DNA of 64,000 nucleotides, from contig NZ_KK088653.1 of the NCBI RefSeq assembly GCF_000600975.2, positions 186,501 through 250,500 on the forward strand, given 5' to 3'. The position numbers and the translations under genes are program-made. The notes under the pieces were generated by a model. That model did no database searches and had not been told where the DNA came from. It worked only from the letters and a program-made list of their open reading frames with translations. This DNA comes from Limimaricola hongkongensis DSM 17492. GTDB lineage: Bacteria > Pseudomonadota > Alphaproteobacteria > Rhodobacterales > Rhodobacteraceae. This document shows, piece by piece, positions 37,528 through 62,570 of the stretch (the stretch's first letter is position 1; every line of letters begins with the position of its first letter).

Positions 37528-39804
37528 ATGACCCGTTTTTCCGCGCCGATCGCCGAACAGATCTGGGACATGAAATATCGCTTCAAGCAAAGCGACGGCA
37601 CGCCGATCGACGAGACGGTCGAGGATAGCTGGCGCCGCATTGCCAAGGCACTGGCCGCGCCCGAGAAGGACCCCGAGCACTGGGAGGAAAAGTTCTACGG
37701 CGCGCTCGAGAACTTCCGCTACCTGCCCGCCGGCCGGATCACCGCCGGGGCCGGCACCGCCCGCGCGGTGACGCTGTTCAACTGTTTCGTCATGGGCACC
37801 GTGCCCGATTCGATGTCGGGCATCTTCGACATGCTGAAGGAAGCGGCCCTCACGATGCAGCAGGGCGGCGGCATCGGCTATGACTTCTCGACCATCCGGC
37901 CGCGCGGTGCCGAGGTGAAGGGCGTGGCCGCCGACGCGTCGGGCCCGCTGTCGTTCATGGATGTCTGGGACGCGATGTGCCGCACCATCATGTCGGCCGG
38001 TTCGCGCCGCGGCGCGATGATGGCGACCATGCGCTGCGACCACCCCGATGTCGAAGCCTTCATCACAGCGAAGTCCGACCCGGCGCGTCTGCGCATGTTC
38101 AACATGTCGGTGCTGGTCACCGATCCGTTCATGGAAGCCGTGAAGGCCGATGGCGACTGGGATCTGGTCTTCAAGGGCCGCGTCTACAACACCGTGCGCG
38201 CGCGCGAGCTGTGGGACGCGATCATGCAGTCGACCTACAACCAGGCCGAGCCGGGCGTGATCTTCATCGACCGTATCAACCAGATGAACAACCTCGGCTA
38301 TTGCGAGGAAATCGCGGCCACCAACCCCTGTGGCGAGCAGCCTCTGCCGCCCTATGGCGCCTGCCTGCTTGGCTCGATCAACCTCGCCAAGCTGGTCAAG
38401 AACGAATTCGAGAAGGGCGCCAAGCTCGACGAGGCCGAGCTCGACGATCTCGTCGCGCTCGCGGTGCGGATGATGGACAACGTCGTCGACGCCTCGAACT
38501 TCCCGCTCGAGGCGCAGGCCGAGGAGGCCCGCAACAAGCGCCGCATCGGGCTTGGCGTCACCGGCCTTGCCGACGCGCTCCTGATGGTCGGGCTGCGCTA
38601 TGGCTCGGACGAGGCCGCCGCCCAGACCGAGGCCTGGATGAAGCGCATCGCCCGCGCCTCCTACCTCGCCTCCGTGGATCTGGCGAAGGAAAAGGGCGCC
38701 TTCCCGCTGTTCGACGCCAAGAAGTACCTCGCCACCGGCAACATGATGCAGATGGACAAGGACGTGCGCGACGCGATCGCCAAGCACGGCATCCGCAATG
38801 CGCTTCTGACCTCGATCGCGCCGACCGGCACCATCTCGCTCTACGCGGGCAACGTGTCCTCGGGCATCGAGCCGGTCTTCGCCTATGCCTACACCCGCAA
38901 GGTGCTTCAGAAGGACGGCACCCGCACCGAGGAGGAGGTCGTCGACTACGCCGTGCAGGCGTGGCGCGAGAAGTTCGGTGACAAGGAGCTGCCCGACTAC
39001 TTCGTCAACGCTCAGACGCTGCAGCCGATGGAGCATGTGAAGATGCAGTCGGCGGCGCAGAAGTGGATCGACAGCTCGATCTCCAAGACGATCAACTGCC
39101 CCGAGGACATCTCCTTCGAGGCGTTCAAGGACGTCTACATGGAGGCCTACGAGACCGGCTGCAAAGGCTGCACCACCTACCGGCCCAACGACATCACCGG
39201 CTCTGTGCTGTCGGTCTCCGAGCCCGCCAAGGCGCCCGAGGCGAAGGCGGCACCCGCCGAGCCGACCGGCGGCGAGGTGATCTACATGTCCGAGCCGCTC
39301 GACCGTCCCGCCGAGCTTGAAGGCGCGACCTACAAGCTGAAATGGCCCGACTCTGAGCACGCGATCTACATCACCGTCAACGATCTGGTCGTCGGCGGCC
39401 ATCGCCGGCCTTTCGAGGTGTTTATCAACTCCAAGAACATGGAGCATTTCGCCTGGACCGTGGCGCTGACCCGGATGGTGTCGGCGGTGTTCCGGCGCGG
39501 CGGCGACGTCTCCTTCGTGGTCGAGGAGCTGAAGGCGGTCTTCGACCCGCGCGGCGGCGCCTGGATCAAGGGCAAATACGTCCCCTCGATCCTCGCGGCG
39601 ATCGGCGGCGTGATCGAGAAGCACATGATCTCGACCGGCTTCCTCGCGGGCGAAGGGCAGGGGCTCAAGGAGGACCCGCAGCAGCAGGTCGTCAATCTCG
39701 ACGCCCCGCGCGGCAAATCCTGCCCCTCCTGCGGCAGCTTCGAGCTGCGCATGGTCGAGGGCTGCATGACCTGCGGCAGCTGCGGCCATTCGAAGTGCGG
39801 TTGA
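37528..39804 (+). CDS. nrdJ: Adenosylcobalamin-dependent (class II) ribonucleotide reductase
   Basis: A 758-residue class II enzyme that reduces ribonucleotides to deoxyribonucleotides using an adenosylcobalamin radical. Signature stretches: YLPAGRITAGAGTARAVTLF with NCFVMG (first redox cysteine), TNPCGEQPLPPYGACLLGSI near residue 265 (radical cysteine and catalytic glutamate), and TSIAPTGTISLYAGNVSSGI. The C-terminus has the redox/zinc cysteines CPSCGSF, GCMTCGSCGHSKC. The shorter class II form of about 750 residues is common in Rhodobacterales. The Tn7-like element begins 15 bp after its stop, and the original terminator now lies 22.7 kb away. Confidence 0.95.
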   Translation: MTRFSAPIAEQIWDMKYRFKQSDGTPIDETVEDSWRRIAKALAAPEKDPEHWEEKFYGALENFRYLPAGRITAGAGTARAVTLFNCFVMGTVPDSMSGIFDMLKEAALTMQQGGGIGYDFSTIRPRGAEVKGVAADASGPLSFMDVWDAMCRTIMSAGSRRGAMMATMRCDHPDVEAFITAKSDPARLRMFNMSVLVTDPFMEAVKADGDWDLVFKGRVYNTVRARELWDAIMQSTYNQAEPGVIFIDRINQMNNLGYCEEIAATNPCGEQPLPPYGACLLGSINLAKLVKNEFEKGAKLDEAELDDLVALAVRMMDNVVDASNFPLEAQAEEARNKRRIGLGVTGLADALLMVGLRYGSDEAAAQTEAWMKRIARASYLASVDLAKEKGAFPLFDAKKYLATGNMMQMDKDVRDAIAKHGIRNALLTSIAPTGTISLYAGNVSSGIEPVFAYAYTRKVLQKDGTRTEEEVVDYAVQAWREKFGDKELPDYFVNAQTLQPMEHVKMQSAAQKWIDSSISKTINCPEDISFEAFKDVYMEAYETGCKGCTTYRPNDITGSVLSVSEPAKAPEAKAAPAEPTGGEVIYMSEPLDRPAELEGATYKLKWPDSEHAIYITVNDLVVGGHRRPFEVFINSKNMEHFAWTVALTRMVSAVFRRGGDVSFVVEELKAVFDPRGGAWIKGKYVPSILAAIGGVIEKHMISTGFLAGEGQGLKEDPQQQVVNLDAPRGKSCPSCGSFELRMVEGCMTCGSCGHSKCG

Positions 39805-39813
39805 GTTGAGGGG

Positions 39814-39818
39814 ACGGG
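39814..39818. repeat. Left copy of candidate target-site duplication (ACGGG)
   Basis: ACGGG here and at 62499-62503 flank the element; Tn7-like transposons make 5-bp duplications. The left end starts TGTGTGTGCCAG, six bases longer than the right end, so the exact boundary depends on how that TG run arose. Confidence 0.65.
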
Positions 39819-39824
39819 TGTGTG

Positions 39825-39874
39825 TGCCAGAAAAGCATATGAGTGCGAATTGCAAGCATAAGCGTGCGAGTTAC
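39825..39874 (+). repeat. Left terminal inverted repeat and tandem transposase-binding repeats
   Basis: The end reads TGCCAG, four variable bases, then GCATATGAGTGCGAAT. Inside it, two directly abutting 21-bp repeats occur at 39833-39853 (AAGCATATGAGTGCGAATT + GC) and 39854-39874 (AAGCATAAGCGTGCGAGTT + AC). Tandem repeats of about 20 bp are the usual TnsB-binding sites of Tn7-like ends. Confidence 0.85.
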
Positions 39875-39893
39875 ACGTCAAGTGCTTTCTACG

Positions 39894-39921
39894 ATGACCC
39901 CGGCAGACATGCCGGGGTCAT
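39894..39921 (-). terminator. Stem-loop overlapping the tniQ stop codon
   Basis: Perfect 11-bp arms ATGACCCCGGC / GCCGGGGTCAT with a six-base loop. The right arm contains the tniQ stop codon. There is no long T run on either side, so it may be a terminator that protects nrdJ from antisense reading, or a structural element near the transposon end. Confidence 0.5.
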
Positions 39922-41756
39922 TCTCGTTTAGGCCAATGGCATAGAAAGTGGCGTTCAAGGGCCGTCCACGAGAAGAGGTTTTCGTGCTTTGTTTCGCCGT
40001 CGAAGAATCTCCGCTCCAGCAGGCCGAAAGCAGGCGACAGCAACTTCTGCCATGGCCATCCAGTCTCCAGCGACAAGCGGCGGAGCGGAACAAAAGTCTC
40101 GTCGAAGGACCGGCGATCGCTCTCAGTGATATAGGGCTGGACCGCCTTTCGCTTGGGGTTGGAAGCGTTCGTGGCTCGGATATGGCCGGAGGCAACGAGC
40201 TGCGTCATCTGCGTGGGCTTGAGGCCGACTGATTTGGCGAACACCTCGAGCGTTAGGCCCGGAGCGTGATCGATATTCAGCTTGCTTTGTAATTCGTCTC
40301 GGTCGACCAGGATCGAGGCGTAGCCTGTGGCCTGCGAGTAGCTGCCAATTCGACGAAGCTCGCCTTTCTCGATTAGGTCGATGATCTCGGCGGGGCGGAC
40401 CCGAAGCTGATGGCAGGCCTCTTGCAGCGTACGCCAGCCATGCATCTTTGCATGAACTGTTTCGGCGCCACGTAGGAGGTCAGCAATGAAGCGATGAGCA
40501 TCGGTGGCCTTCCACAGAGGCTTCGCGCCTGCTGCCGTAATTGCCGGCGACAGATAGCCATCTGCTCTGAGCGATTCGAAATGGGACCGAGAGATATTCA
40601 TCAGCTGCTGCAGTTCGATCCCGCTCACCATTCGATTGAGCTCTTCGATGATGGGCTTCACCGCCTTGGCGTCGAACACCGCCCATTCGTCGGTGCTGCT
40701 CAAGGCCGCGCCTGTCAGTATTCCTCGCTCGCGCAGAAGTTTACGCAGACGGCGATCATCGATCCCGCCCTCCTCCGCAGCCGTCCGAACGGAATGGAGC
40801 CTACGCTCGAGAACGGGCTCCCCCATCACGTTGTCTCCTGCGCCGACCGGCCAGGTTGCCAGGATGTGGTCGCGAATGATTCCCCTGAAAACGCCGTAAG
40901 GCTCGGAGGTCAGTTCATGCGCAAACCTGTCGTACAGGTCGCCGAAGACGCCCTTCGGTCCCTGCCGGGGCGATCCCAACTTGGATTGCAGCCGAGCAAG
41001 CGTGTCGCGAACTTGGTCTGGTCCTTCCGCCGAAAGCACATACCCCGTTGCCGCTTCGGCCCAAAGCTCGTCCGGATGAACGCGGTTTCGTCCTCCGGTC
41101 TCCAGACGTACCGCGGCCCGCCCTAGTAGTTCGGAAAAGACGCAGACGGCCTGCAGATCGATGCCATCGAACCAGTTCCCGCTATGCTGACCGTGCAGCC
41201 GGTCGGCCACGTATAGCTCGAAGAGGCTCGCCTCCCTCGGCTCACCATCGAGCCCCCCCTCTTCGAGGGACGTTCGGATCTCAGCTAGACGCGCAGCGAA
41301 GTCGAAGCGGACAGTTGAAGCAGGATCGGCCCATAAGTCGACCAGCGGCATTTCATGCTCGGTGCAAACACGGAGGTGGCGCAGCAACCAGTCGGCGCGC
41401 ATGTGGGGCATCCAGGGGGACGGGTCCTTGGCCATGTCCTCTCGAAGGCATGCAGGGCAGCCTCTGATGGCCACGGGCTTAATGCTCTTAGCGTGGAAGA
41501 TTTCACCACGAAACGAATGTTCGCGACCTCCTAGGTGAATGGGTGTCCACTCCAAAAGGGCATCGAGCGCTACCCCACCTAGTTCTGCCAAACGCTGGCA
41601 GACCAACTCATCGCCTTGAATGATCTTCGAGAAGGGAAGCTCGAAGTCCGCGCCGAAGGTACTGGCTGGCAAGCCATTCCGGCTCGCGAGGCGCGACATG
41701 AAGGAGAAGGCTGGTTCCCGTTCGCCGAGGGGAACGGAGAGGGGAAGTGATAACAT
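39918..41756 (-). CDS. tniQ: TniQ/TnsD-family transposon targeting protein
   Basis: A 612-residue protein with the TniQ N-terminal fold: SFMSRLASRNGLPASTF near residues 18-34, and a zinc-binding arrangement Cys100, Cys103 (RGCPACLRED), Cys131, His134 (LRVCTEHEMPLVDL). The long C-terminal half (DNA-binding helices in residues ~300-600) brings it closer to TnsD of Tn7 (508) than to short TniQ (~400). TnsD proteins recognise the end of a specific chromosomal gene and recruit TnsC. The gene is read toward nrdJ and lies at the opposite end of the element from tnsABC. The 267 bp between it and the DUF499 gene show nothing convincing. Confidence 0.88.
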   Translation of the reverse strand: MLSLPLSVPLGEREPAFSFMSRLASRNGLPASTFGADFELPFSKIIQGDELVCQRLAELGGVALDALLEWTPIHLGGREHSFRGEIFHAKSIKPVAIRGCPACLREDMAKDPSPWMPHMRADWLLRHLRVCTEHEMPLVDLWADPASTVRFDFAARLAEIRTSLEEGGLDGEPREASLFELYVADRLHGQHSGNWFDGIDLQAVCVFSELLGRAAVRLETGGRNRVHPDELWAEAATGYVLSAEGPDQVRDTLARLQSKLGSPRQGPKGVFGDLYDRFAHELTSEPYGVFRGIIRDHILATWPVGAGDNVMGEPVLERRLHSVRTAAEEGGIDDRRLRKLLRERGILTGAALSSTDEWAVFDAKAVKPIIEELNRMVSGIELQQLMNISRSHFESLRADGYLSPAITAAGAKPLWKATDAHRFIADLLRGAETVHAKMHGWRTLQEACHQLRVRPAEIIDLIEKGELRRIGSYSQATGYASILVDRDELQSKLNIDHAPGLTLEVFAKSVGLKPTQMTQLVASGHIRATNASNPKRKAVQPYITESDRRSFDETFVPLRRLSLETGWPWQKLLSPAFGLLERRFFDGETKHENLFSWTALERHFLCHWPKRE

Positions 41757-42023: not shown

Positions 42024-45356
<3,333 letters not shown>

Positions 45357-45368: not shown

Positions 45369-48143
45369 TCAAATATCCATGCGGGTCTGGCGGTTCTTGT
45401 CGGTCACGTGAATCGTGGCCGCCAGCCGGGTCAAATCTGTCCAGACGGCGATCAGGCCGTTGTAGGAGGTCGCCTCCTTCGCATCCTGGCGCTTGTTGCC
45501 GCAGACGTCGTAGAGGTAATAGGCAAGATCCTTGACCGTCTCGGCCCGCTCGCTACCGATTTTCTTCAGCAGTTCCGCCGCCGCATACTCGCCGTCATTT
45601 TCCAGCGTGCGGATCAGGTGTTGGCAAGCTTCCCAGATCGTGAAATGGTCATCAGTCTCGGGATCCCAATCGGGGTCGAGCTCGTTACGTTTCAGAATGC
45701 GTACTTTCCCGGCCGAACTCTCAATAATCCCAGCGTGCTTGACGCTTTCGACCGAAATGCCGCGTGCCGTAGCAATGCTGTTGGCAATGCCGTACTCGCC
45801 CTTATCGAACCCGTTCTGTTGGAACCAAGTCGCAGTAAAGCGGGTGTCAGCATCGAACTCGCCATGCAGGTCGTTCAGGAACTCATCGAGTTGAGCGTTA
45901 ATCAGCTGCAATGCAGCTTTGACTGTCATCGGGCTATCGTCAGCTTCTAGGACAGCCCTGTAACGAGAAAAGACGCCCATGCCGGGACCTATTGCTGATT
46001 GCGGCATGTCAGCAGGCGAAACGTTGGCGGCTTGGAGCTCAGCGATCGCAGGTGGAAGTTCGCGCTTCAATGCACGAACAAACTCCGCGCGGGTAATGGT
46101 TCCTGCGGTAGCATCTCTTTTTCGACACACGAGAACAACCGAGTTCGCAAGCGCGTTTGCTCCGATGCCGCGAATGCGGTTGGCAAGCTCAGTTCTAACT
46201 GGCCAAGTGCCGACGACAGAAAATCCTGCCTCAAACACTGCTTGGAGAAAAGTCGCCCATCCGGTTGAGCTTAGTCCATCAGCAGTCATTTCGCTTTGCT
46301 TGAAGGCGTAGTATATCGAGGCAGGGTACTCGTCTGAGACTTGAGATACCGCATTCGCAATTGCCTTCCTCATTCCAGATAGGAAAAATTCCTCGGCTTT
46401 ATCCTTTCCTCCGTGCCTATAGGGGGCGGCAATCAGTTCCTCCGTTTTCGGCGCGGACAACGTCGAAAATAAGTCGGGGTAAGTCTTCCGAAGATTGCGG
46501 CGCAGCCAGGTTAGGAAGAAATCCGACAGGTCAGAATATCCCACATTGTCATAATAGGGTGGGTCACTAGATAGGACGGCACCTTCAGGATATTTGGCAG
46601 TTTGAGCATCGTGCTGGCGCAACCAACCTTGTTCTCCGTGGCCCAAGTTACCTAAGGCACGCATCATGTTTGCCAAGGTCACGCCGAAATCTCCGGCTGA
46701 CTTCGAGAAAAGGTTGGGTTCGGCAAAATCCCAGACGATCGGAATGGCCTGCCGAGTGAATAGGTGAATGACCTGCACCATGGATGGTTTCCATGACACG
46801 AGGGAATTTTGAGTATCGCTAAGCTTACTAATCGCGAGGGCGAGGTATACGGTCACCGCATCCGCATACGCTTGTCTGTCCGGAACGGCACCGTTCTCCT
46901 GGATGTCAGATTTGATTACTTCGCGAACCTCTTCGAGAAGCTCAGAAAATGTGTTGAGCGCTACAAGCTGTCGAGCGGTATAGAGGTCCCCAAATGTATG
47001 CATCCCGAAGTCGGGCGGCGTGAAGGCACGACGGTCAGGGGATATCTTCTGATCTGGTACCCATGAGGGTTCAGCTGAATGTGCCGTTGCTTCGTGCTTA
47101 TGGTCGCTTTGAAGAAATATGCGTCCGCCTTTTCTCTGCGCAACGATTGCAAGAAGCATTTCCTGCATCTTTCCGGATGATGCTTGCTTCCGAACATACT
47201 CGGCGGTTATTGCTGTGTCAGATATTAGGCATCTGAAATTAGACCCGGCCCCGGCCTTGGTTCCGGATTTTGCTGCCTTCCAATCCTCTTGTGTGCCATC
47301 ATGTCTGATATTGAAGGCGATTGTGCGGTTGGTTCTATCAACCACCGGCACAAGACGGGCTTCAGAGCCCTTCTTTGTGCTGAGGATGAAGTTGGATACT
47401 AATGGGACCTGAACGTCTGAAAAGGCCGGATCGGGACTCGGTACTGTTCTAGCCCAAATCCAAGCAACTACCGTTGCCTCTCCGCCCCCATACTCGGCGG
47501 GGAGATTTACTTTTGGATATAGGTGACCGATGCGCTCCTCGGCATGCTTTCGCATCCACTCGCCGTAGAATTGTACGTCTTCTGCCAGACCTTGTGCGTT
47601 GCGGTATCCGCCATGGCCCGCGTCAGGTTCCCCTGGATGAACTGGCATCATATTTTTGAATCTGGCAGGGATCTCGATCATTGCCTTGCCGATCATGACC
47701 GCCACCGGGTTCAGGTCCGATCCATGAGCAGGAAGGCCGAGACGCTGCGCCTCCAGCGGAATCGACCCACCGCCCGAGAATGGGTCATAGACCGGCGGCA
47801 GCTTACCACCGCAGCTGCGCCGGATTTCCGCCCGCGCGCGCTCTAGAACCTCCTCGTTGGTAGAGTTCTCCCATTTCACCAGCTCTTCAATGATCTGGAA
47901 CAGACGCTTGCGCTCGGCCTCTACCGCTTCTTCAGTCGGGAACTCATCAGGGTGGCTGGATGGGTCATCCACAAGCTGCGCGAACAACACCGCTCGGCAC
48001 GCTGCTAGAGGCCGTCGCGCCCACCACAAGTGCAGAGTGCTGGGATGCCCATGCCGGATTGACTTCTCCCGCGCCGACGCCGCGTTGATTGCTTCGAGGG
48101 GGATCGCGACTTCGATTAGTTTCTTTTTGTAGGCTTGGGTCAT
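45369..48143 (-). CDS. DUF1156 DNA (adenine-type) methyltransferase
   Basis: A 924-residue protein that begins with the DUF1156 signature (KKKLIEVAIPLEAINAASAR then EKSIRHGHPSTLHLWWARRP). The SAM-binding motif I is DPFSGGGSIPLEAQRLG (DPFSGGG 120-126), and the catalytic motif IV is DPPYY at about residues 527-531 (LSSDPPYYDNVGYSDLSDFF). DPPY is characteristic of N6-adenine and N4-cytosine methylases. It is expected to mark host DNA so that the helicase and ATPase act only on unmodified DNA. The middle of the gene (46.2-47.4 kb) is visibly lower in GC than the flanking chromosome. The 5' end overlaps the ASCH gene by 4 bp. Confidence 0.88.
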   Translation of the reverse strand: MTQAYKKKLIEVAIPLEAINAASAREKSIRHGHPSTLHLWWARRPLAACRAVLFAQLVDDPSSHPDEFPTEEAVEAERKRLFQIIEELVKWENSTNEEVLERARAEIRRSCGGKLPPVYDPFSGGGSIPLEAQRLGLPAHGSDLNPVAVMIGKAMIEIPARFKNMMPVHPGEPDAGHGGYRNAQGLAEDVQFYGEWMRKHAEERIGHLYPKVNLPAEYGGGEATVVAWIWARTVPSPDPAFSDVQVPLVSNFILSTKKGSEARLVPVVDRTNRTIAFNIRHDGTQEDWKAAKSGTKAGAGSNFRCLISDTAITAEYVRKQASSGKMQEMLLAIVAQRKGGRIFLQSDHKHEATAHSAEPSWVPDQKISPDRRAFTPPDFGMHTFGDLYTARQLVALNTFSELLEEVREVIKSDIQENGAVPDRQAYADAVTVYLALAISKLSDTQNSLVSWKPSMVQVIHLFTRQAIPIVWDFAEPNLFSKSAGDFGVTLANMMRALGNLGHGEQGWLRQHDAQTAKYPEGAVLSSDPPYYDNVGYSDLSDFFLTWLRRNLRKTYPDLFSTLSAPKTEELIAAPYRHGGKDKAEEFFLSGMRKAIANAVSQVSDEYPASIYYAFKQSEMTADGLSSTGWATFLQAVFEAGFSVVGTWPVRTELANRIRGIGANALANSVVLVCRKRDATAGTITRAEFVRALKRELPPAIAELQAANVSPADMPQSAIGPGMGVFSRYRAVLEADDSPMTVKAALQLINAQLDEFLNDLHGEFDADTRFTATWFQQNGFDKGEYGIANSIATARGISVESVKHAGIIESSAGKVRILKRNELDPDWDPETDDHFTIWEACQHLIRTLENDGEYAAAELLKKIGSERAETVKDLAYYLYDVCGNKRQDAKEATSYNGLIAVWTDLTRLAATIHVTDKNRQTRMDI

Positions 48144-48547
48144 GCGAGTGCCTTCACAGCTTCGTCTGCTGCTAGAGCATCAGATACGCGTTGATCGAGA
48201 GTGACCCAGATGACTGCGCCGCTCTTATGGGTGTATGGAAGCGGCCGGTGAAGCCTCACGGCGCTTGACATGATCCATGCATGTCGATGCTTCGCGAATT
48301 TTCCCGAGAGGAAAGTCTCGGGTGGGATGTGATGCTTGTCTTGGTTGTCGAGCATCTTCTGATCGGACAGAGGGCCTTCAGCCCCCACCATCTTGGCCAC
48401 GCCAATGATATGGCCGCTACCCTTCTTGACGAGACCGATCCAGCCGCGCTGCTTGGCAGAGGTGCTTCGCATCTCCCATGTCTTCTCGCTTCTCATGATC
48501 TTGCTGATCCAAGGTTCGTCGATGATAAGCGCTTTCTCGAACTTCAT
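48140..48547 (-). CDS. ASCH domain protein within the defence operon
   Basis: A 135-residue protein with an ASCH/PUA-like fold: KALIIDEPWISKIMRSEKTW and EMRSTSAKQRGWIGLVKKGS then GHIIGVAKMVGAEG. ASCH domains bind RNA or modified bases; YqfB is an N4-acetylcytidine amidohydrolase. The gene overlaps its neighbours by ATGA at both ends (helicase stop 48544, methylase start 48143), so it is translated as part of the operon. An ASCH gene is not one of the three named Hma components as I know them. Confidence 0.8.
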   Translation of the reverse strand: MKFEKALIIDEPWISKIMRSEKTWEMRSTSAKQRGWIGLVKKGSGHIIGVAKMVGAEGPLSDQKMLDNQDKHHIPPETFLSGKFAKHRHAWIMSSAVRLHRPLPYTHKSGAVIWVTLDQRVSDALAADEAVKALA

Positions 48548-51500
48548 GCCGGTGCCTCTGCTCGCTCAAGCAAGCGATTGATATTAAACTGGATTGCGTT
48601 CTGATCGAACGGCGGTTCGCGCGAGTCGAGCGCACCGTGTACATACCTCGGGGCAGAAGCGAACCCCTCTTTGACCTGCACTATCGCAAGGATAAATTTT
48701 TCGGGTTCGTGGAGCGAGGTGATGATTTCTTGGCGGGTTAACATGATGGTATCTGCGCCGTCGACCCTGCCTTTGACCTCGATGAACCGCATATGGTTGG
48801 TATCAGGATCGAAGGAGGCGATGTCATAGCCGATTTTGCGAGCGGACACGTCCTCGGGCTCGTTTCCAAGAGCGCGCTCGGATGCCATGACGGCAGCCAT
48901 CGCCTTCAACTCGATCTCACGGCGGGCTTCAGGGTCTTCGGAGAAGCCATTGGGTGTAACAGCATTGCCCTTCTTCAGGAGCAGGCCTCTCGGAACCACG
49001 ACCATTCCGCCCCGGACGCGCGGGGGCTGGGACGAGATGAAGCGCTCCTGCTCAATCACCTCAAGACGGCGGCGCAGGCGTTCGGCCAAGTCCTCTGCCC
49101 GGCGCTCTGCGTTTCGCCAGTTGGATCGGACCTTCTTGCCCGCCTTTTCCTCCTCCTTCAGTTCGGCGGCGCGAGAATCCCAGTAGTTGATCTCTTTCTT
49201 CAGTCGGGCTTTGACCTCGTGCTCGACCTTGTCGATCTCCGGGAGGCGCCGCTCGCGCACTTCGGCGACATGGCCTTGAGCAAGCTCGATAGTTGCGTAT
49301 TGGACGACGCGCTTTTCCAAGTCTGCCGTAAGCCAAGGGGCGCTGATCTCAGTATGGACAGAGGCGATCTCCTCCGGTGTCGCAGCTCGCAGGTTTAGGT
49401 GCGGTGCGATCCCGGCATCATGAATTTCACCTGCCTGACTGATTGTTGCAAACTGGAGCTTTTGCGAGACAAGGTTGGCATTGCCTGCGTGACCAGGACG
49501 TCCGTCCTGCACCGAGTGTTCCAGAAGGAAGAGGGCTTCGACTGCTGTCCCGTCGTCGGTGTCGTCGACCAGTACGGCCCCTTGTTTCATCAGGTGATCG
49601 TTCTGTTCGCGGACTACGCTGATCACTGCGTCCAGCAAGGGGTGGCCCGGGTAGACGAAGGCCGCCACTGGTTGCTGGTTGATCTTCGACTTCTCGAAGC
49701 AAACCCGTTCGTACTTCTTCTGGATCGGCGCCCCGCCGCCAATCTGGCGATCCCGTTCCCTGATGATGAGCGGGACGTGGGTAATCTCCCACCGGCCTTC
49801 TTCCCGTCTCTTGATCTGCCCGCCGAGGCGCTGGAAGGCTTCCACGAAGAAGCTCTGAATGTGATGAGGTTGAAGACGTTGCGCCTCGGCCTTCTCCATC
49901 GCGATCCGAAGCTTTTGGACTTGGGCCGCCGGCATCGTGTCGTTAGTGAGTTGCCGCTTCTGAAGAAGGTCGAGGAGATGGCTTTGATCTACCGCGCCAT
50001 CGACGGCTTTGTAGAGGCGCGCCCTCACGTCCTCATCGTCGTTGTACTGGATTGCTTCCAGAAGCAGATCCCGCAGCGGCCGATCCTCGAAGAGCTCGCC
50101 CAGGACATCATAGACTCGTCCTCCTAAAGCCTCGCGGGCGGCTTCAAGCTTTTCGAGCAGGCGCGCATAGACGTCCCCTTCGCGGGTGTCTTTCGCAACG
50201 AGGTTCCAGAGGTGGCATACCTCGGTTTGCCCGATCCTATGGATGCGACCAAACCGCTGCTCGATCTTGTTCGGGTTCCAAGGCAGGTCATAGTTCACCA
50301 TCAGATGCCCGCGCTGAAGGTTAACGCCTTCACCTGCCGCATCGTTAGCAATGAGGACAAGCATGTCCCTGTCCTGCATGAAGCGTTCGACGACCTTGCG
50401 GCGCTCCTCGCGCGTCACTCCGCCATAGATCACGTCCACTGCGTCGGGTTTGCCGAGGCGCGCGGTCACCTTGTTGCGAAGGTATTCGAGCGTGTCTTTC
50501 GGCTCGGTGAAGATGATCAACTTGCGACGATGCCCGTCGGGATCGAGCATCAGATCATCATCGAGGATCTTGTCGAGCTGCTGCCACTTGGTGTCATGCC
50601 CGGAGTGAAGAACGCGGAGGGCCATGCCCTCCAGTCCTTTAAGGGTTTCGACCTCGATCTCCAGCTGCTCGGCCGTCTCCGCACTGGTTGCGCTAGTCGA
50701 AATCAGGTCTTCCATCTCGTCGATTTCGTCCTGACCATACTCGTCGATATTGGTCAGCAGGTCTTGATTGACTTTGGGTTGGGAGAAGCCTGCCCTCTCA
50801 CTCTTGGCGGCGAGCCGCGCCTCGCTCAGCTCAGCTTCGAGCCGCTCCCGGCGTCGCTTGAGCGACTGGTAGATTGCGGCGGGGCTGGAGGCCAGACGTC
50901 GCTGCAGAATTTGCAGAGCGAAACCGACGTTGTTCTTCTTGCGCCCATCCGTGTCAGCGAACCTCAAAACGCGGTTCATCTCGTCGCGCACGTAGTCCGT
51001 AACCGCGGTGTAGAGTTCGGCTTCTTCGGGAGAGAGGTCGTACTTGACTGTGTAGGCGCGACGCTCCGGGAAGAGGGGGCGACCGTCAAAACGCAGCAGC
51101 TCTTCTTTGGTCAGACGGCGCATCATGTCTTCGACGTCTGCGACATGGACGCCGTCCCGGAAACGGCCTTCAAAGCGGTCCCCATCCAAGAGCGCCATGA
51201 AAAGCTGGAAGTCACGTTCCTTGCCGTTGTGGGGCGTGGCCGACATCAGCAGGAAGTGACGACAGACCTGACCTAGCTTTTGCCCAAGCTGGTAGCGCTT
51301 GGTGTATTTGGCCTCGCTGCCGAAAAATGTCGCGGACATGCGGTGGGCTTCGTCGGCGATGATCAGATCCCACTCGGTCGACTTGAGAAGTTTCTCTTGA
51401 AGCTCTTCGTTGCGTGCCAAAACATCTAAACGCGCAATCATCCGGTTGCAGTCGTTAAATGGGTTTCCGGAGCGGGAGCTCTCGATCATGTCCCTGCTCA

Positions 51501-52044
51501 GGATGTCGAATTCCAAGCCGAATTTCTCTCCAAGTTCATCCTGCCACTGCTCAACAAGGCTGCCAGGTGCGACCACTAGGCATCTTTCGAGATCACTGCG
51601 GGCGATTAACTCCTTAATCAGAAGGCCAGACATAATGGTTTTGCCCGCGCCCGGATCATCGGCCAACAGGAACCGCAAGGGCTGCCGCGGCAACATCTCT
51701 CCGTAGACCGCCGAAATTTGGTGCGGAAGTGGATCGACCTGACTGGTGTGGATCGCCAGATAAGGGTCGAAGAAGTGGGCGAGCTTGATGCGGTTTGCTT
51801 CGGTCACCAGGCGCAGCAGTGCCCCATCCGCGTCGAAGGACCAGTTTCGGCCGGCAGACTGGATATCAATGCGGTACTCGTCATCGCGGTAAATGGTCGT
51901 CTCGGCCACCGCGCCACTCGTCTGACGAAATACAATGTTGACAGCTTGGTTGCCAATCCATTCCACCGATACTACCTCAACGGCAGTGCCTGGCGTTGCG
52001 CCGGAAACTCGACTTCCGGGCTTTATTTCTTCAAGCTTTGCCAT
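48544..52044 (-). CDS. SNF2-like DEAD/DEAH helicase with C-terminal DUF3883, Hma-type defence
   Basis: An 1166-residue protein. Walker A is FLLADDPGAGKTIMSGLLIK (GAGKT 132-136), DEAH is at 231-234 (LLIADEAHRMSATF), and the helicase C domain has VYGGVTREERRKVVERFMQD, VLIANDAAGEGVNLQRGHLM and PNKIEQRFGRIHRIGQTEV. The C-terminus (~residues 1030-1130) is DUF3883, a PD-(D/E)xK-like fold with FIEVKGR. It heads the leftward operon helicase-ASCH-methylase-ATPase. It is the likely motor that tracks on invading DNA. The promoter must lie in 52045-52260; I cannot place it with confidence. Confidence 0.9.
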   Translation of the reverse strand: MAKLEEIKPGSRVSGATPGTAVEVVSVEWIGNQAVNIVFRQTSGAVAETTIYRDDEYRIDIQSAGRNWSFDADGALLRLVTEANRIKLAHFFDPYLAIHTSQVDPLPHQISAVYGEMLPRQPLRFLLADDPGAGKTIMSGLLIKELIARSDLERCLVVAPGSLVEQWQDELGEKFGLEFDILSRDMIESSRSGNPFNDCNRMIARLDVLARNEELQEKLLKSTEWDLIIADEAHRMSATFFGSEAKYTKRYQLGQKLGQVCRHFLLMSATPHNGKERDFQLFMALLDGDRFEGRFRDGVHVADVEDMMRRLTKEELLRFDGRPLFPERRAYTVKYDLSPEEAELYTAVTDYVRDEMNRVLRFADTDGRKKNNVGFALQILQRRLASSPAAIYQSLKRRRERLEAELSEARLAAKSERAGFSQPKVNQDLLTNIDEYGQDEIDEMEDLISTSATSAETAEQLEIEVETLKGLEGMALRVLHSGHDTKWQQLDKILDDDLMLDPDGHRRKLIIFTEPKDTLEYLRNKVTARLGKPDAVDVIYGGVTREERRKVVERFMQDRDMLVLIANDAAGEGVNLQRGHLMVNYDLPWNPNKIEQRFGRIHRIGQTEVCHLWNLVAKDTREGDVYARLLEKLEAAREALGGRVYDVLGELFEDRPLRDLLLEAIQYNDDEDVRARLYKAVDGAVDQSHLLDLLQKRQLTNDTMPAAQVQKLRIAMEKAEAQRLQPHHIQSFFVEAFQRLGGQIKRREEGRWEITHVPLIIRERDRQIGGGAPIQKKYERVCFEKSKINQQPVAAFVYPGHPLLDAVISVVREQNDHLMKQGAVLVDDTDDGTAVEALFLLEHSVQDGRPGHAGNANLVSQKLQFATISQAGEIHDAGIAPHLNLRAATPEEIASVHTEISAPWLTADLEKRVVQYATIELAQGHVAEVRERRLPEIDKVEHEVKARLKKEINYWDSRAAELKEEEKAGKKVRSNWRNAERRAEDLAERLRRRLEVIEQERFISSQPPRVRGGMVVVPRGLLLKKGNAVTPNGFSEDPEARREIELKAMAAVMASERALGNEPEDVSARKIGYDIASFDPDTNHMRFIEVKGRVDGADTIMLTRQEIITSLHEPEKFILAIVQVKEGFASAPRYVHGALDSREPPFDQNAIQFNINRLLERAEAPA

Positions 52045-52719: not shown

Positions 52720-53496
52720 TTAATGCGCTGTCCGGCGAATTTCTTCGGCGAGGAGGTCAACTTCATTGAGGGTGTATAATCTCGAATCTGCCCTGAGGAA
52801 TTCCTCCTTCAAGTCGCTAACAAAGGAATCCATTTGGTCGCCGAAGTCGCCAACCACAATTAGACGGTGATCTAATGTTTCCGCTAGGGCTTTTCCTTCA
52901 AGGACCCGCTTTCCGGCTTCCGCCAAGCCGCGCTCGGAGCTATCAAAGCGTGCTGAGTCGATTAGATTGTAAACACCATTCTGATACCCGTAATCAGCTT
53001 TAATGCTCACGCCCCACTTTGAGATGCGAACAGCCTTTGGCCTTTTCTGTAATAAAGGCAGTACGCCTGCATCCTTCAGTGCGCATGTAAGTCGCGTACT
53101 GACGCGCTCTGTCTTCTTTTTTTTAGCATTGGCTTCGACTAGTTCGGAGAAGAGAAGCTGCGCAACATCATGAGGACTCTCCCCTAGGGCGGGGAGGATT
53201 TGAGTAATCTGAAATATTCCGGCGCGCTTTGAGTTGAAGTCCGTAGCGGACATTTCAAAGTGCCGCTTGCGAAACTCATATTCAATCTGTTCAGAGAAGT
53301 CAGCGAGAGCCATCTTTAGGAATGATGGACTCGCCTCGCCGAAGAACTTCTTAACGCGACTGAAGTCCGAGCTGTGCTTGCTGATCACTTTTCCGCGACG
53401 GCCGTCAAAAACCAACACCCCGACATTTACGAACTCAAACCGCTCGGGGTGTGGGCTGAATTGAACGATACTGTACGCCAGTTCACGCTCGTTCAT
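52720..53496 (-). CDS. DUF3037 domain protein
   Basis: A 258-residue protein beginning MNERELAYSIVQFSPHPERF and EFVNVGVLVF, the DUF3037 signature. Its function is unknown, but genes for it very often sit directly beside a HipA-like kinase. That is so here: its start overlaps the kinase stop as ATGA (53493-53496). GC content is lower than in the chromosome. It is probably the partner or substrate of the kinase in a toxin-antitoxin or defence unit. Confidence 0.8.
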   Translation of the reverse strand: MNERELAYSIVQFSPHPERFEFVNVGVLVFDGRRGKVISKHSSDFSRVKKFFGEASPSFLKMALADFSEQIEYEFRKRHFEMSATDFNSKRAGIFQITQILPALGESPHDVAQLLFSELVEANAKKKKTERVSTRLTCALKDAGVLPLLQKRPKAVRISKWGVSIKADYGYQNGVYNLIDSARFDSSERGLAEAGKRVLEGKALAETLDHRLIVVGDFGDQMDSFVSDLKEEFLRADSRLYTLNEVDLLAEEIRRTAH

Positions 53497-54362
53497 CGTA
53501 CTCCCTCCCCTTGCTCGAAGTTCATCTCAGACTGCTCAAATATGGCAGCGGGAAGCCACGATCCAAGGCCCTTCGCCCTATCCACAAGGCATGAACTGAG
53601 GTCATCAGCTAAGCCGTGGGTCATGCCCCACTCACGCGGAACCTCCTCACATACGCGCCGAATGGTCTCGAGGTCAATCTGCTCGACAAGCGTCAAGGCC
53701 GTGTGGACTGCCGCCCGTGTCAGAATGGGCGCAAACTGGTCGAAGAGACCGTACACGTTTCGCTCTGCGATCCATTCGGGCCCCAGTTCATCCTCCAGTG
53801 TGGTCTCGACCAGAGCATGAGTATGGTCAATAACCACTAGTTCCACCATCCTCTTATCCATCCTCAGTAGGACATTGTCATAGTTGGCATTTCCATATGT
53901 GCTCAAGTCGGGTTCCGCGAACCGATCTTTGTTCCGGAGCCATGTATCGAAGACGACGAGCTTCGCGACAGCTTCTGGCTGGCGAAGTTTCTTGAGCAAA
54001 GTTGACCCGGGTGAGAGTGATGTGGCTTCAGTCCAACGAGAGCAAAAGGCAGGTCCAGGCGAAATTTGTAATAGTGGATAGTTAGGGAGAACGATGCTGG
54101 GAATGTCTAGGACCGCGAAGTCCGGCGTCGTCAATCCAATCATGTTCGCTAGCTCGGTGCCGACCAGTTCGCAAATCAAAGCGTCATTGCCAGCATGGTT
54201 GCCAATGTATTTGATTATTGCTGCGCCTTCGTCGGTCATTACTTGAAGTGGCTTTGTGCTCGTTTCCAAGACACGGGTCACTCGTTCGACAGTTGACGGC
54301 TGCCAATCCCTTCCAGAAAACACCCAGTTAATCCACCTTGAGCCTGCCAACCGAAAGGGCAA
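53493..54362 (-). CDS. HipA-like kinase (HipA_2 type)
   Basis: A 289-residue protein with a HipA/eukaryotic-like kinase core: nucleotide-binding Lys51 in AAIIKYIGN, catalytic region VVFDTWLRNKDR (N144, D146, R147), metal-binding N163 in NYDNVLLR, and VVIDHTHAL (D179). It is shorter than E. coli HipA (440) and lacks the HipB-binding N-terminal domain, matching the compact HipA_2 family. It is the first gene of a two-gene operon with DUF3037. Substrate and toxicity are unknown. Confidence 0.8.
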   Translation of the reverse strand: MPFRLAGSRWINWVFSGRDWQPSTVERVTRVLETSTKPLQVMTDEGAAIIKYIGNHAGNDALICELVGTELANMIGLTTPDFAVLDIPSIVLPNYPLLQISPGPAFCSRWTEATSLSPGSTLLKKLRQPEAVAKLVVFDTWLRNKDRFAEPDLSTYGNANYDNVLLRMDKRMVELVVIDHTHALVETTLEDELGPEWIAERNVYGLFDQFAPILTRAAVHTALTLVEQIDLETIRRVCEEVPREWGMTHGLADDLSSCLVDRAKGLGSWLPAAIFEQSEMNFEQGEGVR

Positions 54363-55413: not shown

Positions 55414-55909
55414 TTAAGACGCTTGCCTGCCAGTCCGCCGTGCCAGCTTGGCGGCCAGGTTCGGTCCTACTCCTGGCCGAGACCACGGGCAGACCGCGAT
55501 GCAGATCCCGCAGCCATGATGCTCGTTGAAGAAGGGCAGGCACTGGTCGAAATCCACGTACCACTTGTGTGCGCCGCGGACCTGCTGCTTCTCCGGATAG
55601 ATCGCCTCGGGCGGGCAGGCGTCCTCGCAGATCCGGCAGCTCGCGCAGAAGGCATCGATGCCATGCTCGCGCGGCGGCGTGGGGGCGAAGGGGGCATCGT
55701 TCAGTACGGCCGAGAGCCGGAAGTTCGTACCGAGATCGCGGTCGATGATCGCGCCGTGCTTGCCAAGCTAGCCGAAGCCGCAGGCCAGCGCAGGCGGGAT
55801 CAGGGTGAAGTCCCCGGTCGTCGGCCCGGTCACCGGCTCATCCCTGCTGACGCAGCCACCCCGCAACCTGCTTGGCGGCATGCGCGGCCCTGCCGTACTG
55901 CCGAATAAC
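55414..55909 (-). pseudogene. QueG/reductive-dehalogenase-like 4Fe-4S protein, C-terminal half
   Basis: On the minus strand it encodes FRLSAVLNDAPFAPTPPREH, then CASCRICEDACPPEAIYPEK and NEHHGCGICIAVCPWSRPGV, two 4Fe-4S cluster motifs, ending GPNLAAKLARRTGRQAS. An amber stop replaces a glutamate codon at ACGFG-stop-LG, and an ~8-bp deletion breaks the frame further upstream. The first ~140 bp (about 55770-55909) also occurs, diverged, at 56893-57042. Confidence 0.8.
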
Positions 55910-56071
55910 CAACCACCGCCGCCTTCTCGAACCCATCGGGAACATCCCTCCAGCCGAGGCTGCAGCAAACTTCTACGCTGCTCTAGAAACTGAAGAGATG
56001 GCCGCGTAACTAACCGAAATCAGCCCCCGGCAAACCCGGCGCTGTTCACCTATCGAAGAAGGAGAGACTTC

Positions 56072-56428
56072 ATGGAGCTACTTACTGAAGAGCAGAGGGC
56101 CATCCTGACCGCCAACGGTAAGTCCAACGAGGAGCAAGCTCTCCACGGGAAGACATGCGACTTTAAGCCAGTCGTGAAGCTATTTCTTCGTGAGCCTTAT
56201 GAAGCGTGGCTTCTGACTGAGCTTATTCCGTCGGATCCCAACGATTTCTACGGACTGTATCTTGCTGACGGTAAAGAGCCAGATTTCCGTTATGTATCGT
56301 TGTCCGCGCTCGAAGCTAAGCGTGGGCGAGGTGGCTGCACCGTCGAGCGTGACATTCATTTCACTGCCGACAAAACTCTTCAGGGCTACGCTGAAGAGGC
56401 CAGGAGAAAAGGAAGAATCATCACTTGA
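56072..56428 (+). CDS. DUF2958 domain protein
   Basis: A 118-residue acidic protein with the DUF2958 pattern (EPYEAWLLTELIPSDPNDFY followed by GLYLADGKEPDFRYVSLSAL). It has a good AGGAGAG ribosome-binding site. DUF2958 genes are found mainly on plasmids and integrative elements, with no known function. It is intact although it lies between pseudogene fragments, so it may be under selection or recently acquired. Confidence 0.75.
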   Translation: MELLTEEQRAILTANGKSNEEQALHGKTCDFKPVVKLFLREPYEAWLLTELIPSDPNDFYGLYLADGKEPDFRYVSLSALEAKRGRGGCTVERDIHFTADKTLQGYAEEARRKGRIIT

Positions 56429-56543
56429 AACTATGGATTGAAGATAGTCGCTCGGCACACCTATGACAGAGGCCGTGGGATAAGTCCGTCCGGGAAAAGG
56501 GGCACCTCGGCCATCACCCGTTTTGCGCAACAGAGCCGTTGTG

Positions 56544-56880
56544 GACTATTCGATACTGTGCCGCCGGCAGGCGTGGATTGCGGTGCAGGACCCGTATCGC
56601 ACATCGCGCCAACCTCTGAACCTGCCCGTCGACAACACCGGCATCAAGTTCTGCGATTATAGCGAATGGCAGGCCTGCAAGCAGGGCCCGTCACGTCGCA
56701 GGCAATGGCGGAAGGTTCATATTGCCATGGACGCGGGCACCGGGGATGTGCGTGCGGTCGAGTTCACCTCAAGCCGCCAAGGCGACAGACCGCTGCTGCC
56801 GGAGCTGCTGTTGCAGATCTCGCCGGAGGCGACGATCGGCACGGTCACCGCAGACGGTGCCTTCGATACGCAACTATGCT
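56544..56880 (+). pseudogene. IS5-family transposase, internal fragment
   Basis: It encodes DYSILCRRQAWIAVQDPYRT, LNLPVDNTGIKFCDYSEWQA, RRRQWRKVHIAMDAGTGDVR, AVEFTSSRQGDRPLLPELLL and GTVTADGAFDTQLCY, the DDE-domain middle of IS5-group transposases (first and second catalytic aspartates VDNTG and TADGA). The N-terminus is missing, and the reading frame breaks at the junction with the QueG-like fragment. The last catalytic glutamate region is gone, so it cannot be active. Confidence 0.85.
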
Positions 56881-56892
56881 ATGGCCCCGAGT

Positions 56893-57521
56893 TCCCCGAA
56901 GCCGCAGGCCAGCGCGGGCGGGATGAGGGTGAAGTCCCCGGTCATCGGCCCGGTCACCGGCTCCGCGGCCCAGCCCTCCTGGCGCAGCCAGTTCGCAACC
57001 TGCTTGGCGGCATGCGCTGCCCGGCCATATTGTCGGATGACTTCGGCGCCGGCCTCGACCTCGGGCGCTTGGCGGAGCCGGGCGTAGTCGTGCCGCACCC
57101 CCAGCATGATCACCCGCGACTGCGGCACCGAGCGCCCCTCGTAGCACCACTCGGCTTGCATCTCGGCGACGCCGGTCTTCTCGCACAGGCCGGCCTCGAC
57201 GAAGCCGTCGAGCAGTTCGGTCCAGTCTTCAGGCGCGCGCGTGACCTGCTCGGCGGCGACCTCCGGCAACGGCGCTTCGAGGATCGCCTGCCGCGCGGCC
57301 CGTTCCGCCAATAGCGCCGGTGCATCCGGCTGGACCGTGTAGAACCAACGCTGCATCTCGCCATGCGGGATCTGGTCCGGATCGGGGGCCCAGTAGACTA
57401 GGCGCGGCGGATGCGGATCAGGATCATCCAGCCCGTTGATGTCGTTCCCCGACACGATGGGTCTCAGCGCCATCTGGGCAGGGTCGGGCTGGTAGGGGCG
57501 ATACGGATTGGGCTTCGGCAT
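56893..57521 (-). pseudogene. QueG/reductive-dehalogenase-like 4Fe-4S protein, N-terminal half
   Basis: The minus-strand frame from ATG 57521 gives ~210 residues (MPKPNPYRPYQPDPAQMALR through GDFTLIPPALACGFGELG) and is then cut by IS5-family sequence, ending at 56874. The missing part with the iron-sulfur motifs resembles the fragment at 55414-55909. The two halves share ~140 diverged bases, so they do not come from a simple split of one gene. The sequence is high GC and could be of chromosomal origin from a related strain. Confidence 0.8.
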
Positions 57522-58088
57522 GGCCGGAGGTTAGCCGATCTGCGGCATGCTACAAGCGGCGGTGGGCAACGCGCGGGTTCACTCGAGAAAACCTGCCCCC
57601 TGACGTTAGGTTATTCAAAGAATAGTCGTCGCGACCTCGGTCAGAGGGGGGCGTCAACCCCCTTGGAGGCGAGGCGCGGGGAGGTTTGCGAAAATTCTAA
57701 ACCGCGATTTTTCGCATAATTTCAGGTGTTTACGAATCTCCGGGGTGCTGCTTTAGGCCTCGCTGCCTCGAACATGTGGACAACCGAAAATCTCCGCTCG
57801 GGATTTTCACCCGGTTCGCTCATGTTGAAGGCAGACGAGGCAGTTGGAGATCTTGAGGAAGCCGTACCTGACCAATCGGGGCCGCCACACAGCGGGCTTC
57901 GAACACGGCGTCAGGGCGCAGAGCAGGCAAAAAAAGAACGCGCCTTGAAGAGCGCGCTGAAGTCGAAGGCCGACTGCGGCCCTACCACATCGCGGACCGT
58001 AGACCCGGACACCGGGCACCCGCAACACCGCAGTTGGTCAGACCCTTTGATCGTCCGGAGCCATGGGTTTCCGGGAGCGGAAGAAGTC
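57522..58088. other. Upstream region of the transposition operon
   Basis: A 567-bp region. The left 40 bp are the leader of the QueG-like remnant. An inverted repeat at 57687-57716 and AT-richer DNA (57680-57730) follow, likely the tnsA promoter area. An open frame from GTG 57726 leads into tnsA without a stop, but the ~120 residues it adds lack the look of a conserved domain. Confidence 0.55.
57687..57716. promoter_or_regulatory. Inverted repeat, candidate operator for tnsABC
   Basis: Arms TGCGAAAA and TTTTCGCA are perfect 8-bp complements separated by 14 bp, in an AT-rich patch about 370 bp before the chosen tnsA start and just before an alternative GTG start. The spacing fits a dimeric repressor site; no regulator gene is seen nearby. 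Confidence 0.35.
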
Positions 58089-58826
58089 ATGATCCTCGAA
58101 CACGATGAGTGGGCGTATTCGCCGCCCAAGTATAAAAGACAGACGGTTATCACCCTGGATCCCGTGGAGGGCGTTCTGCCCTTCGGGGGTGTCCGGAGCC
58201 CGCTGTCGACCAGCAGCTCGAGCCACCGGGTGACGCTGACCTACTGCGTGCCGGCCAACGACAACAAGCCGAGGATCGGCAAGTGCGAGAGCGCGGCCGA
58301 GCTCGCCGTCGCGCAAGAGGCGCTGATGGATCCGCGGCTTTACGATCTGGAGTTCCAGCCTTGCAGGGTGTCGTTCCTGTTCGATGGGACCAAGCACGAC
58401 CATACTTACGATCTCCGCCTGACAATGGTCTGCGGGGAGCGGCGGCTTGTCTTTGTCCGCAACCGGACCAGCCTTCAGCGGCCGAAGGAGCAAGCGAAGC
58501 TCAGGGCTCTCGTCGCCGCGACGCCGGAAAGCGAAGGGCACCGGGTGCTGGTCGTGGACGCCGACAGTTACTCTCGGCCCCGGCGCGACAACCTGCACCG
58601 GATGAAGATCGCATTCGACCAGGCTGAGCCCGAAGTCGATGAGATCGTCTTGGAGACAGCTGCTCGCCTTCGCACGCTTTGGCTCCTACGTGACCTGATC
58701 GCCGCGGTCGACCTCGAGCCGTGCGTGGCCTTCCAGTCGATCCTTCGCCTGATTGGCCGCAGGCAGCTGCACACGAACCTCGATCACGTGATCTCCTACT
58801 ACTCTCGCATCTGGTGGCCGGAATGA
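58089..58826 (+). CDS. tnsA: TnsA-like endonuclease
   Basis: A 245-residue protein (ATG 58089; a longer frame opens at 57726). The TnsA N-terminal nuclease fold is suggested by CESAAELAVAQEALMDPRLY, EFQPCRVSFLFDGTKHDHTY with DLRLTMV, and the following strand RRLVFVRN. In Tn7 TnsA the catalytic set is Glu, Asp and a Gln-x-Lys. Here Glu (67 or 71) and Asp108 are present, but the final position reads V-x-R (Arg124) rather than lysine. Its TGA overlaps the tnsB start. TnsA makes the 5' cuts that let a Tn7-like element move by cut-and-paste. Confidence 0.7.
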   Translation: MILEHDEWAYSPPKYKRQTVITLDPVEGVLPFGGVRSPLSTSSSSHRVTLTYCVPANDNKPRIGKCESAAELAVAQEALMDPRLYDLEFQPCRVSFLFDGTKHDHTYDLRLTMVCGERRLVFVRNRTSLQRPKEQAKLRALVAATPESEGHRVLVVDADSYSRPRRDNLHRMKIAFDQAEPEVDEIVLETAARLRTLWLLRDLIAAVDLEPCVAFQSILRLIGRRQLHTNLDHVISYYSRIWWPE

Positions 58827-61962: not shown

Positions 61963-62126
61963 AGTTCTGTGAATTAAATTGCTTGGCCCGTCGAGCTTCT
62001 CATGAAAGCAAGGGTATAGTTGAAAGGACAGCGAATACCGTTCGGGTGTAATTGAGGCGCGGAATCAAAATTTTTGCGTCATGGTTTTGACATGTATTCT
62101 CCTGAAATAGATTGTCGAAATAAAAA

Positions 62127-62336
62127 TTGCCGCATCCCTTACGGGGATATGGCCAATGGATCGAAGAGCGCGATCTTCCGGATGGAAGGATCATGCGCGT
62201 GCGCTGTGACCGAACAATCATAGCGCGTCTGCAATTATTGCAATTCCTCAAAATTTCTGGATTGACCCCGGCCGCCTTGCCTGAGATCGGCTCGTTGTTC
62301 GGGCCCGTGCTTACACGTATGCAGCACGGAGCGTGA
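62127..62336 (+). CDS. Possible small protein at the right end
   Basis: A 69-residue frame from a TTG start: MPHPLRGYGQWIEERDLPDG and RIMRVRCDRTIIARLQLLQF and LKISGLTPAALPEIG. The composition is protein-like, but I recognise no family and see no good ribosome-binding site. It could be a remnant. Confidence 0.3.
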   Translation: MPHPLRGYGQWIEERDLPDGRIMRVRCDRTIIARLQLLQFLKISGLTPAALPEIGSLFGPVLTRMQHGA

Positions 62337-62376
62337 GGGCATTGCTACGCTCAGAACCTCACAAGCTATTGCTTCC

Positions 62377-62503: not shown

Positions 62504-62570
62504 TGATGAGGCTGAAAGCAATTCCAGTCCATTCCACCTGAAGTTTTGACCATCATGAAAGCGCTTATTG

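Follow-up and report, generated by a model that had tools for sequence, protein, structure and literature searches.

The site just after nrdJ as a preferred landing place of Tn7-like transposons in the Rhodobacteraceae

Introduction

What brings a Tn7-like transposon to the place just behind a ribonucleotide reductase gene, and is the end of that gene what is recognized? In the window, by which we mean the whole analysed stretch of 64,000 nt (G000:C7:186501-250500 in our genome sample labelling), such an element starts 16 nt past the stop codon of nrdJ and leaves the gene intact. A sequence-only reading of this DNA had proposed the 3' end of nrdJ as the attachment site. Position, orientation, element ends, duplications and one empty site support this proposal, with exceptions, and our data support, again with exceptions, the view that the site just after nrdJ is a preferred landing place, in this marine family, of Tn7-like transposons with phage-defence genes.

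Results

Boundaries and genes of the window element

The window nrdJ lies on the plus strand at 37528-39804, with its TGA stop at 39802-39804, and is assigned to the class II (adenosylcobalamin-dependent) ribonucleotide reductases by TIGR02504, PF02867, PF00317 and PF12637; it scores 604 bits against TIGR02504 (NrdJ_Z, cut-off 400), and the PF02867 and TSCPD domains were matched in a profile scan. The Tn7-like element occupies 39821-62498 (22,678 bp). The left flank duplication does begin 10 nt after the nrdJ stop, as had been read from the sequence: ACGGGTG stands at 39814-39820 and again at 62499-62505, where it directly abuts the right end. It should be noted, however, that this repeat measures 7 bp and offers no clean 5 bp, which counts against a tidy Tn7-type duplication. 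The left boundary of the element is blurred because TG repeats there, hence the real target-site duplication may be a 5-bp GGGTG within the 7-bp sequence.

The left transposon end (39821-39880) contains one arm of a 26-nt inverted repeat (39825-39850), whose partner at 62473-62498 forms the right end, with 85% complementarity. The outer end at 62498 has 23 of 28 matches, while the runner-up within 61962-64000 reaches 16 of 28. Throughout the 64 kb the end motif GCAT..G.GTGCGA is found only at 39835 and 39856, that is twice in the left end, and, inverted, at 62475; these end motifs are candidate TnsB binding sites. Six other Limimaricola genomes have left ends like that of the window.

Beyond the right end, 62499-63982 is a rearranged segment in which dispersed repeats are followed by a second copy of sulP, 94% identical to G000:C5:749273-750379. 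The present right flank therefore differs from the original one, which counts against the attachment-site reading, and it has no partner among the 106 nrdJ flanks compared. As an empty-site reference it was rejected, since sulP is a second copy and the DNA preceding it is repeat-rich.

At the nrdJ-side end of the element, on the minus strand and thus reading toward nrdJ, is tniQ (39918-41756), encoding a TnsD-like target selector of 612 aa (PF06527, 63.7 bits, cut-off 27) that is 99% identical to its counterpart in L. cinnabarinus XM1 and 92% to that in L. variabilis CECT 8572. The far end carries, on the plus strand, a TnsA-like endonuclease candidate (57726-58826; NF033179, 21.1 bits, below the cut-off of 110), a TnsB-like DDE transposase (58721-61015; PF00665, 26.7 bits, E 7e-6, below the cut-off of 32.6) and a TnsC/TniB-like AAA ATPase (61012-61962; PF05621, 29.5 bits, cut-off 22.4; PF13401). 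Matches of TniQ and TnsC thus exceed the curated cut-offs and those of TnsA and TnsB fall below them; homologues of all three far-end genes stand in the same A-B-C order in two other genomes (G397 and G521).

The cargo, all on the minus strand, is an Hma-like cluster identified by profile matches and consisting of an HmaC-like AAA ATPase (DUF499, 42024-45356, 972 bits), an HmaB-like adenine methylase (DUF1156, 45369-48143, 1180 bits), a 135-aa protein that matched no family (48140-48547) and an HmaA-like SNF2 helicase (48544-52044, 1572 bits), together with a DUF3037 protein and a HipA-like kinase (52720-54362) that weakly match the candidate system PDC-M66. The element also contains remains of an IS5-type transposase on the plus strand (56523-57314; DDE_Tnp_1 above cut-off, NF033579 107 bits with a cut-off of 140). 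These remains are bracketed, at 55763-57041, by direct repeats that have diverged (79% over 85 nt, 91% over 77 nt) and are spaced by about 1.13 kb.

Conservation of the nrdJ end

An nrdJ match at E 1e-250 is found in 346 of 394 Rhodobacteraceae genomes. The window protein ends in CMTCGSCGHSKCG, and its last 60 nt of coding sequence (39745-39804, plus strand), which encode CMTC..CGHSKCG, are the putative TniQ binding region as judged from column conservation across the 106 flanks. Over the last 75 nt of the gene, codon positions 1 and 2 in these flanks carry 1.48 and 1.50 bits versus 0.86 for position 3. Such a pattern, with mainly the first two codon positions conserved, is expected of a site held by protein constraint. 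The end of glmS, which Tn7 exploits, is likewise conserved through protein constraint.

Neighbourhood of homologous TniQs

The family sample, with close to one genome per genus, yields a TniQ match at E 1e-10 or better in 91 of its 394 genomes and none in 303; in two further, overlapping samples, of relatives and of the order, matches occur in 9 of 101 genomes at E 1e-60 and in 62 of 390 at E 1e-40. When homologues of this TniQ were compared for the gene next to them, as the sequence-only reading had suggested, nrdJ was their neighbour in several genera of the family, in constant orientation and at near-constant distance. Close copies with a settled site number 23, of which 19 are at nrdJ, 14 directly adjacent to it and 5 in elements or arrays anchored there. 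Direct adjacency is seen in G000, G395, G396, G397, G399, G316, G039, G097, G042, G013, G672, G674, G690 and G384, with tniQ and nrdJ convergent in 14 of 14 cases; the anchored but non-adjacent copies are the second one of G397 and those of G304, G521, G615 and G537. In G395 nrdJ is broken into two frames beside a tniQ fragment (L082, L123, L127), by a frameshift or an assembly error.

These numbers derive from 27 copies of at least 34% identity outside the tRNA-linked clade described below, chosen by eye, plus fragments. Four of the 27 (G088, G673, G571 and G320) are outside the settled 23; that of G571 is probably elsewhere than nrdJ, since it lies on another contig, 6.4 kb from a tRNA-Arg-linked TniQ. 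Fragments in G399 and G384 were noticed through lying at nrdJ, and without them the count is 17 of 21. Short or partial matches are left out of it, among them G051 (53% over 89 residues), G586, G188, G358, G391, G288, G329, G239, G094 and G330.

The sequence-only reading would have been at odds with close homologues at unrelated genes; on this point nrdJ holds for 19 of the 23 copies and not for the other 4. One of these is beside recN (G560, L089), one beside upp (G545, L092), one upstream of a MaoC-like gene (G633), and the last is a second copy in G316. The names recN, upp and MaoC-like were given by eye from translations, and for the tree G633 and G316b were labelled 'other', meaning that no adjacent gene was confidently named. 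No nrdJ match at E 1e-100 was found in G560 and G633, so their tniQ positions would fit the use of secondary sites; the relatives at recN and upp may possibly reflect re-targeting or secondary sites. At the nrdJ flank of G545 no element end was seen. Relatives outside the genus, of about 43% identity, also provide a counterpoint: in G521, G615 and G537 tniQ is 6.6-15.4 kb from nrdJ, the element end being at nrdJ and tniQ further inside, and others (G088, G673, G571) are without a demonstrated nrdJ link.

Precision and repeated use of the site

In 25 flanks whose ends were chosen by eye, the element end has its first base 14-26 nt past the nrdJ stop. End types and motifs, likewise assigned by eye, divide these flanks into type I (13 flanks, 15-20 nt), type II (6 flanks, 17-26 nt), type III (4 flanks, 15-21 nt) and two with other ends (14 and 20 nt). 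G316 has a tniQ remnant roughly 43 kb past nrdJ, following a type II end. Clean 5-bp duplications are found in related elements: G615 has 37,383 bp between two copies of ATGTG, and G071 has 31,074 bp between two copies of TCAGA. For the former an empty site is available from another genus (G073), which aligns across the joined G615 flanks at 84% over 513 columns, from inside nrdJ to past the right flank. No matching duplication was found in G521, nor in G537, where the right-end candidate has different flanks, and no right end was found in G316 and G690.

Several loci hold more than one element. Behind the nrdJ of G397, two complete elements that differ markedly from each other follow in tandem (G397:C3:176.7-264.3 kb; L080, L130, L131, L002, L081, L132), each with tniQ at its nrdJ-side end, and GGTAT stands at the nrdJ/A, A/B and B/outer junctions (by eye, with one end base ambiguous). 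The tnsB of element A is 51% and that of element B 97% identical to the window's; DUF499 and helicase genes of element B are 98-99% identical to those of the window and its DUF1156 copy 71%. Over the overlap this contig equals the L. cinnabarinus XM1 scaffold letter for letter. G521 shows two similar left ends in succession, and in G304 an element of a different type, with a clean 5-bp duplication, TACAC, on its two sides (by eye), is placed between nrdJ and the TniQ-bearing left end. The far end of the G071 element has tnsB, tnsC and a tniQ belonging to a second lineage that is only distantly related and whose members at nrdJ are just 24-26% identical to the window TniQ. Coordinates alone place further TniQs of this second type downstream of nrdJ, on its contig, in G308 (14.6 kb), G353 (14.1 kb) and G232 (20.7 kb). 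Since this distant lineage is at nrdJ too, the gene appears to have served as an attachment site more than once, with elements stacking in tandem.

Flanks not chosen by TniQ

A survey of 80 further flanks took the top 86 of 150 listed nrdJ places, by similarity to the window nrdJ, minus 6 already included. Sequence is shared with the flank of another genome, among the 106 flanks, in 32 of the 80, and the similarity mostly begins about 15-25 nt past the nrdJ stop. In a sliding-window control within the 80, sharing was found in 28/80 at 0-160 nt, 23/79 at 160 nt, 9/78 at 400 nt, 15/77 at 800 nt, 11/74 at 1200 nt and 6/69 at 2000 nt, and in 3/66, 0/66, 0/66, 0/65 and 2/63 over 3-7 kb. The shared flanks are suggestive of use of the site by elements. 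PF06527 is matched in 25 of the 80 genomes, 55 having none at E 1e-5, so relics or other elements would have to account for many of the shared flanks. The largest cluster comprises 16 flanks, including L150, L151 and L152 (G088, G571 and G673) and G071, and begins about 15-25 nt after nrdJ; many of its members have repeated TTGTCCA or TTTGACCA-like motifs, and a Lon/AAA-like ATPase gene is next in L150 and, judged by the gene start, in L151 and L152. A shared flank is not necessarily a Tn7-like end, as in this cluster only G071 has a full element and 55 of the 80 genomes are without PF06527. Right ends were sought in 84 of 87 flanks (three were too short; the pieces were mostly 8 kb and up to 20 kb long) and none reached 21/26; extending nine genomes to 28-68 kb gave a complete element in G071 only.

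TniQ phylogeny and predicted structure

The TniQ tree has 47 rows; it omits G395, G399, G384, G690 and G097 and includes the truncated G042 and G013. A clade of 22 rows (98/100) contains 12 labelled TniQs, all of them tRNA-linked (12/12; L042-L045, L047, L049, L051, L069, L072, L076, L079, L085), and 10 unlabelled ones; the adjoining genes are tRNA-Arg(tct), tRNA-Arg(cct) and tRNA-Gln. The second TniQ lineage is a clade of 3 rows, two with the nrdJ label and one unlabelled. Another 22 rows, with 14 nrdJ labels, 4 others and 4 unlabelled, are not a supported clade, and it is a counterpoint that nrdJ-labelled TniQs do not form one. The nrdJ label needs 8 changes on the tree, with unlabelled rows treated as not nrdJ (5 with these rows omitted), versus a mean of 13.6 for shuffled labels, and 0 of 500 shuffles were as low. 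The same set of TniQs is accompanied by different end types, which points to TniQ rather than the transposase as the common factor and makes it the better candidate for site choice.

The predicted structure of the window TniQ (34 sequences; pLDDT 88.6, pTM 0.68) has the TniQ/TnsD core fold. The N-terminal half of the model matches 6lnd (Z 13.2, rmsd 10.6 over 278) and the TnsD of Tn7 in 8v32_J (Z 10.4, rmsd 5.4 over 196 residues), and the model also matches 8bd5_Q (Z 12.0, rmsd 2.9 over 144). In the C-terminal half, MerR/BldC/Xis-like matches at 499-554 (best Z 6.2, rmsd 2.1 over 51 residues) and 376-464 (Z 4.4) are suggestive, at Z 4-6, of predicted winged-helix-like units. HTH_17 scores 23.3 bits on this protein, below its cut-off of 27, and a sequence-profile search of the PDB gave no match to it.

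Discussion

We consider it highly probable that a Tn7-like transposon homes to the nrdJ 3' end through TniQ binding, TnsC recruitment and joining by TnsAB. TniQ, with its TniQ fold and predicted C-terminal winged-helix-like units, would bind the strongly conserved terminal portion of the nrdJ coding region; once bound it would recruit TnsC, and TnsAB would then insert the element, always the same way round, about 14-26 nt past the stop, keeping nrdJ intact. We infer that TniQ is the reader and that it reads the coding DNA, and the recruitment order is inferred as well. Reading of the conserved gene end by a transposon protein is the probable reason for the preference for the site downstream of nrdJ.

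It is conceivable, if unlikely, that TniQ is a mere adaptor and that another protein of the element or of the host reads the nrdJ region. Length alone is a poor predictor of direct site binding by such proteins, according to the consulted part of PMC10293859, and elements of the second lineage reach nrdJ with a TniQ just 24-26% identical to that of the window. However, no gene lies in the 97 bp between tniQ and the nrdJ-side end of the window element, the C-terminal half of TniQ has predicted winged-helix-like folds, and it is the TniQ set that follows the site across different ends. If it were not TniQ but a sequence or structural hot spot behind nrdJ, terminator DNA for example, that drew transposases there, the use of this place by several end families would be accounted for, as would the 55 of 80 genomes that have no PF06527 match and in part carry shared element-like flanks; constant orientation, narrow distance and the separation of nrdJ from tRNA sites on the TniQ tree make this very improbable.

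Just as little credence is given to a single ancient insertion inherited vertically, by which the link of TniQ to nrdJ would reflect descent and not targeting. Such descent agrees with the same end type after nrdJ in 7 of 8 Limimaricola genomes, two of them as remnants, but not with different ends and duplications at one place, tandem copies within one genome (G397, G304), an empty site in another genus and 303 of 394 family genomes without a TniQ match at E 1e-10. RNA-guided homing of the CRISPR-associated type, known from other Tn7-like elements (PMC11406308, in the portion consulted), can be practically dismissed here. When the element was compared with the last 400 nt of nrdJ plus 20 nt, the best ungapped 32-nt match was 23/32 on either strand, against 22 and 23 for a control segment, and no cas match was found among the scanned window proteins, which represent part of the ORFs; the longest exact match to the nrdJ end was 13-14 nt versus 11 nt in the control.

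Beyond targeting of nrdJ by the window's TniQ, a wider reading is slightly favoured: the nrdJ 3' end would be a general Tn7-like attachment site in the family, reached independently by at least two distant TniQ lineages (that of the window and the one with the arrangement tnsB-tnsC-tniQ in G071 and G304). Divergent elements would stack there in tandem, so that the site would act as a common dock for defence islands, much as glmS or tRNA genes do. With nrdJ found in 346 of the 394 genomes sampled, the site is available in most of these bacteria.

With nrdJ, a metabolic gene joins the genes at which Tn7-like elements are known to reside, and the place behind it becomes a defined spot to seek defence islands. 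TniQs with contrasting sites, nrdJ versus tRNA genes, are a natural set for learning how TniQ/TnsD proteins read DNA, and the element might be made into an insertion tool that spares the host gene in marine Rhodobacteraceae. The sequence-only reading was not aware of nrdJ among the known TnsD-type homes, which agrees with the literature searched (main text of open journal articles), where no report of nrdJ as a Tn7-like attachment site was found. The main texts of PMC10293859, PMC8649781 and PMC11406308 have no word starting with 'nrd' or 'ribonucleo', and nrdJ may be listed in a table elsewhere.

Like Tn7 directed by TnsD to attTn7, the nrdJ elements insert shortly past the stop of a conserved gene in one orientation, make 5-bp duplications (here in some related elements) and combine a TniQ/TnsD-type selector with TnsC and, here as candidates, TnsAB (Tn7 traits in part after PMC8649781 and PMC10293859, in the parts consulted). 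Unlike Tn7, the window element uses nrdJ and not glmS, and its tniQ stands by itself at the nrdJ-side end, with tnsABC at the opposite one; among the scanned window proteins a general profile scan gave no TnsE match. Tn7-like and CAST elements at tRNA genes have a parallel in the related TniQ clade found here at tRNA-Arg and tRNA-Gln, from which the window element differs by its place at nrdJ and by having no guide-like match. The Hma defence system, with HmaA, HmaB and HmaC all matched, is present in the window as cargo only and differs by a 135-aa gene of no matched family between HmaB and HmaA. Tn6022 (TniQ plus TnsF, at comM) and the parE-targeting Tn7-like elements likewise rely on proteins to target a conserved host gene, as far as the portions consulted of PMC10293859 and PMC11406308 describe them; unlike Tn6022, which is inserted in comM, the window element lies outside its gene.
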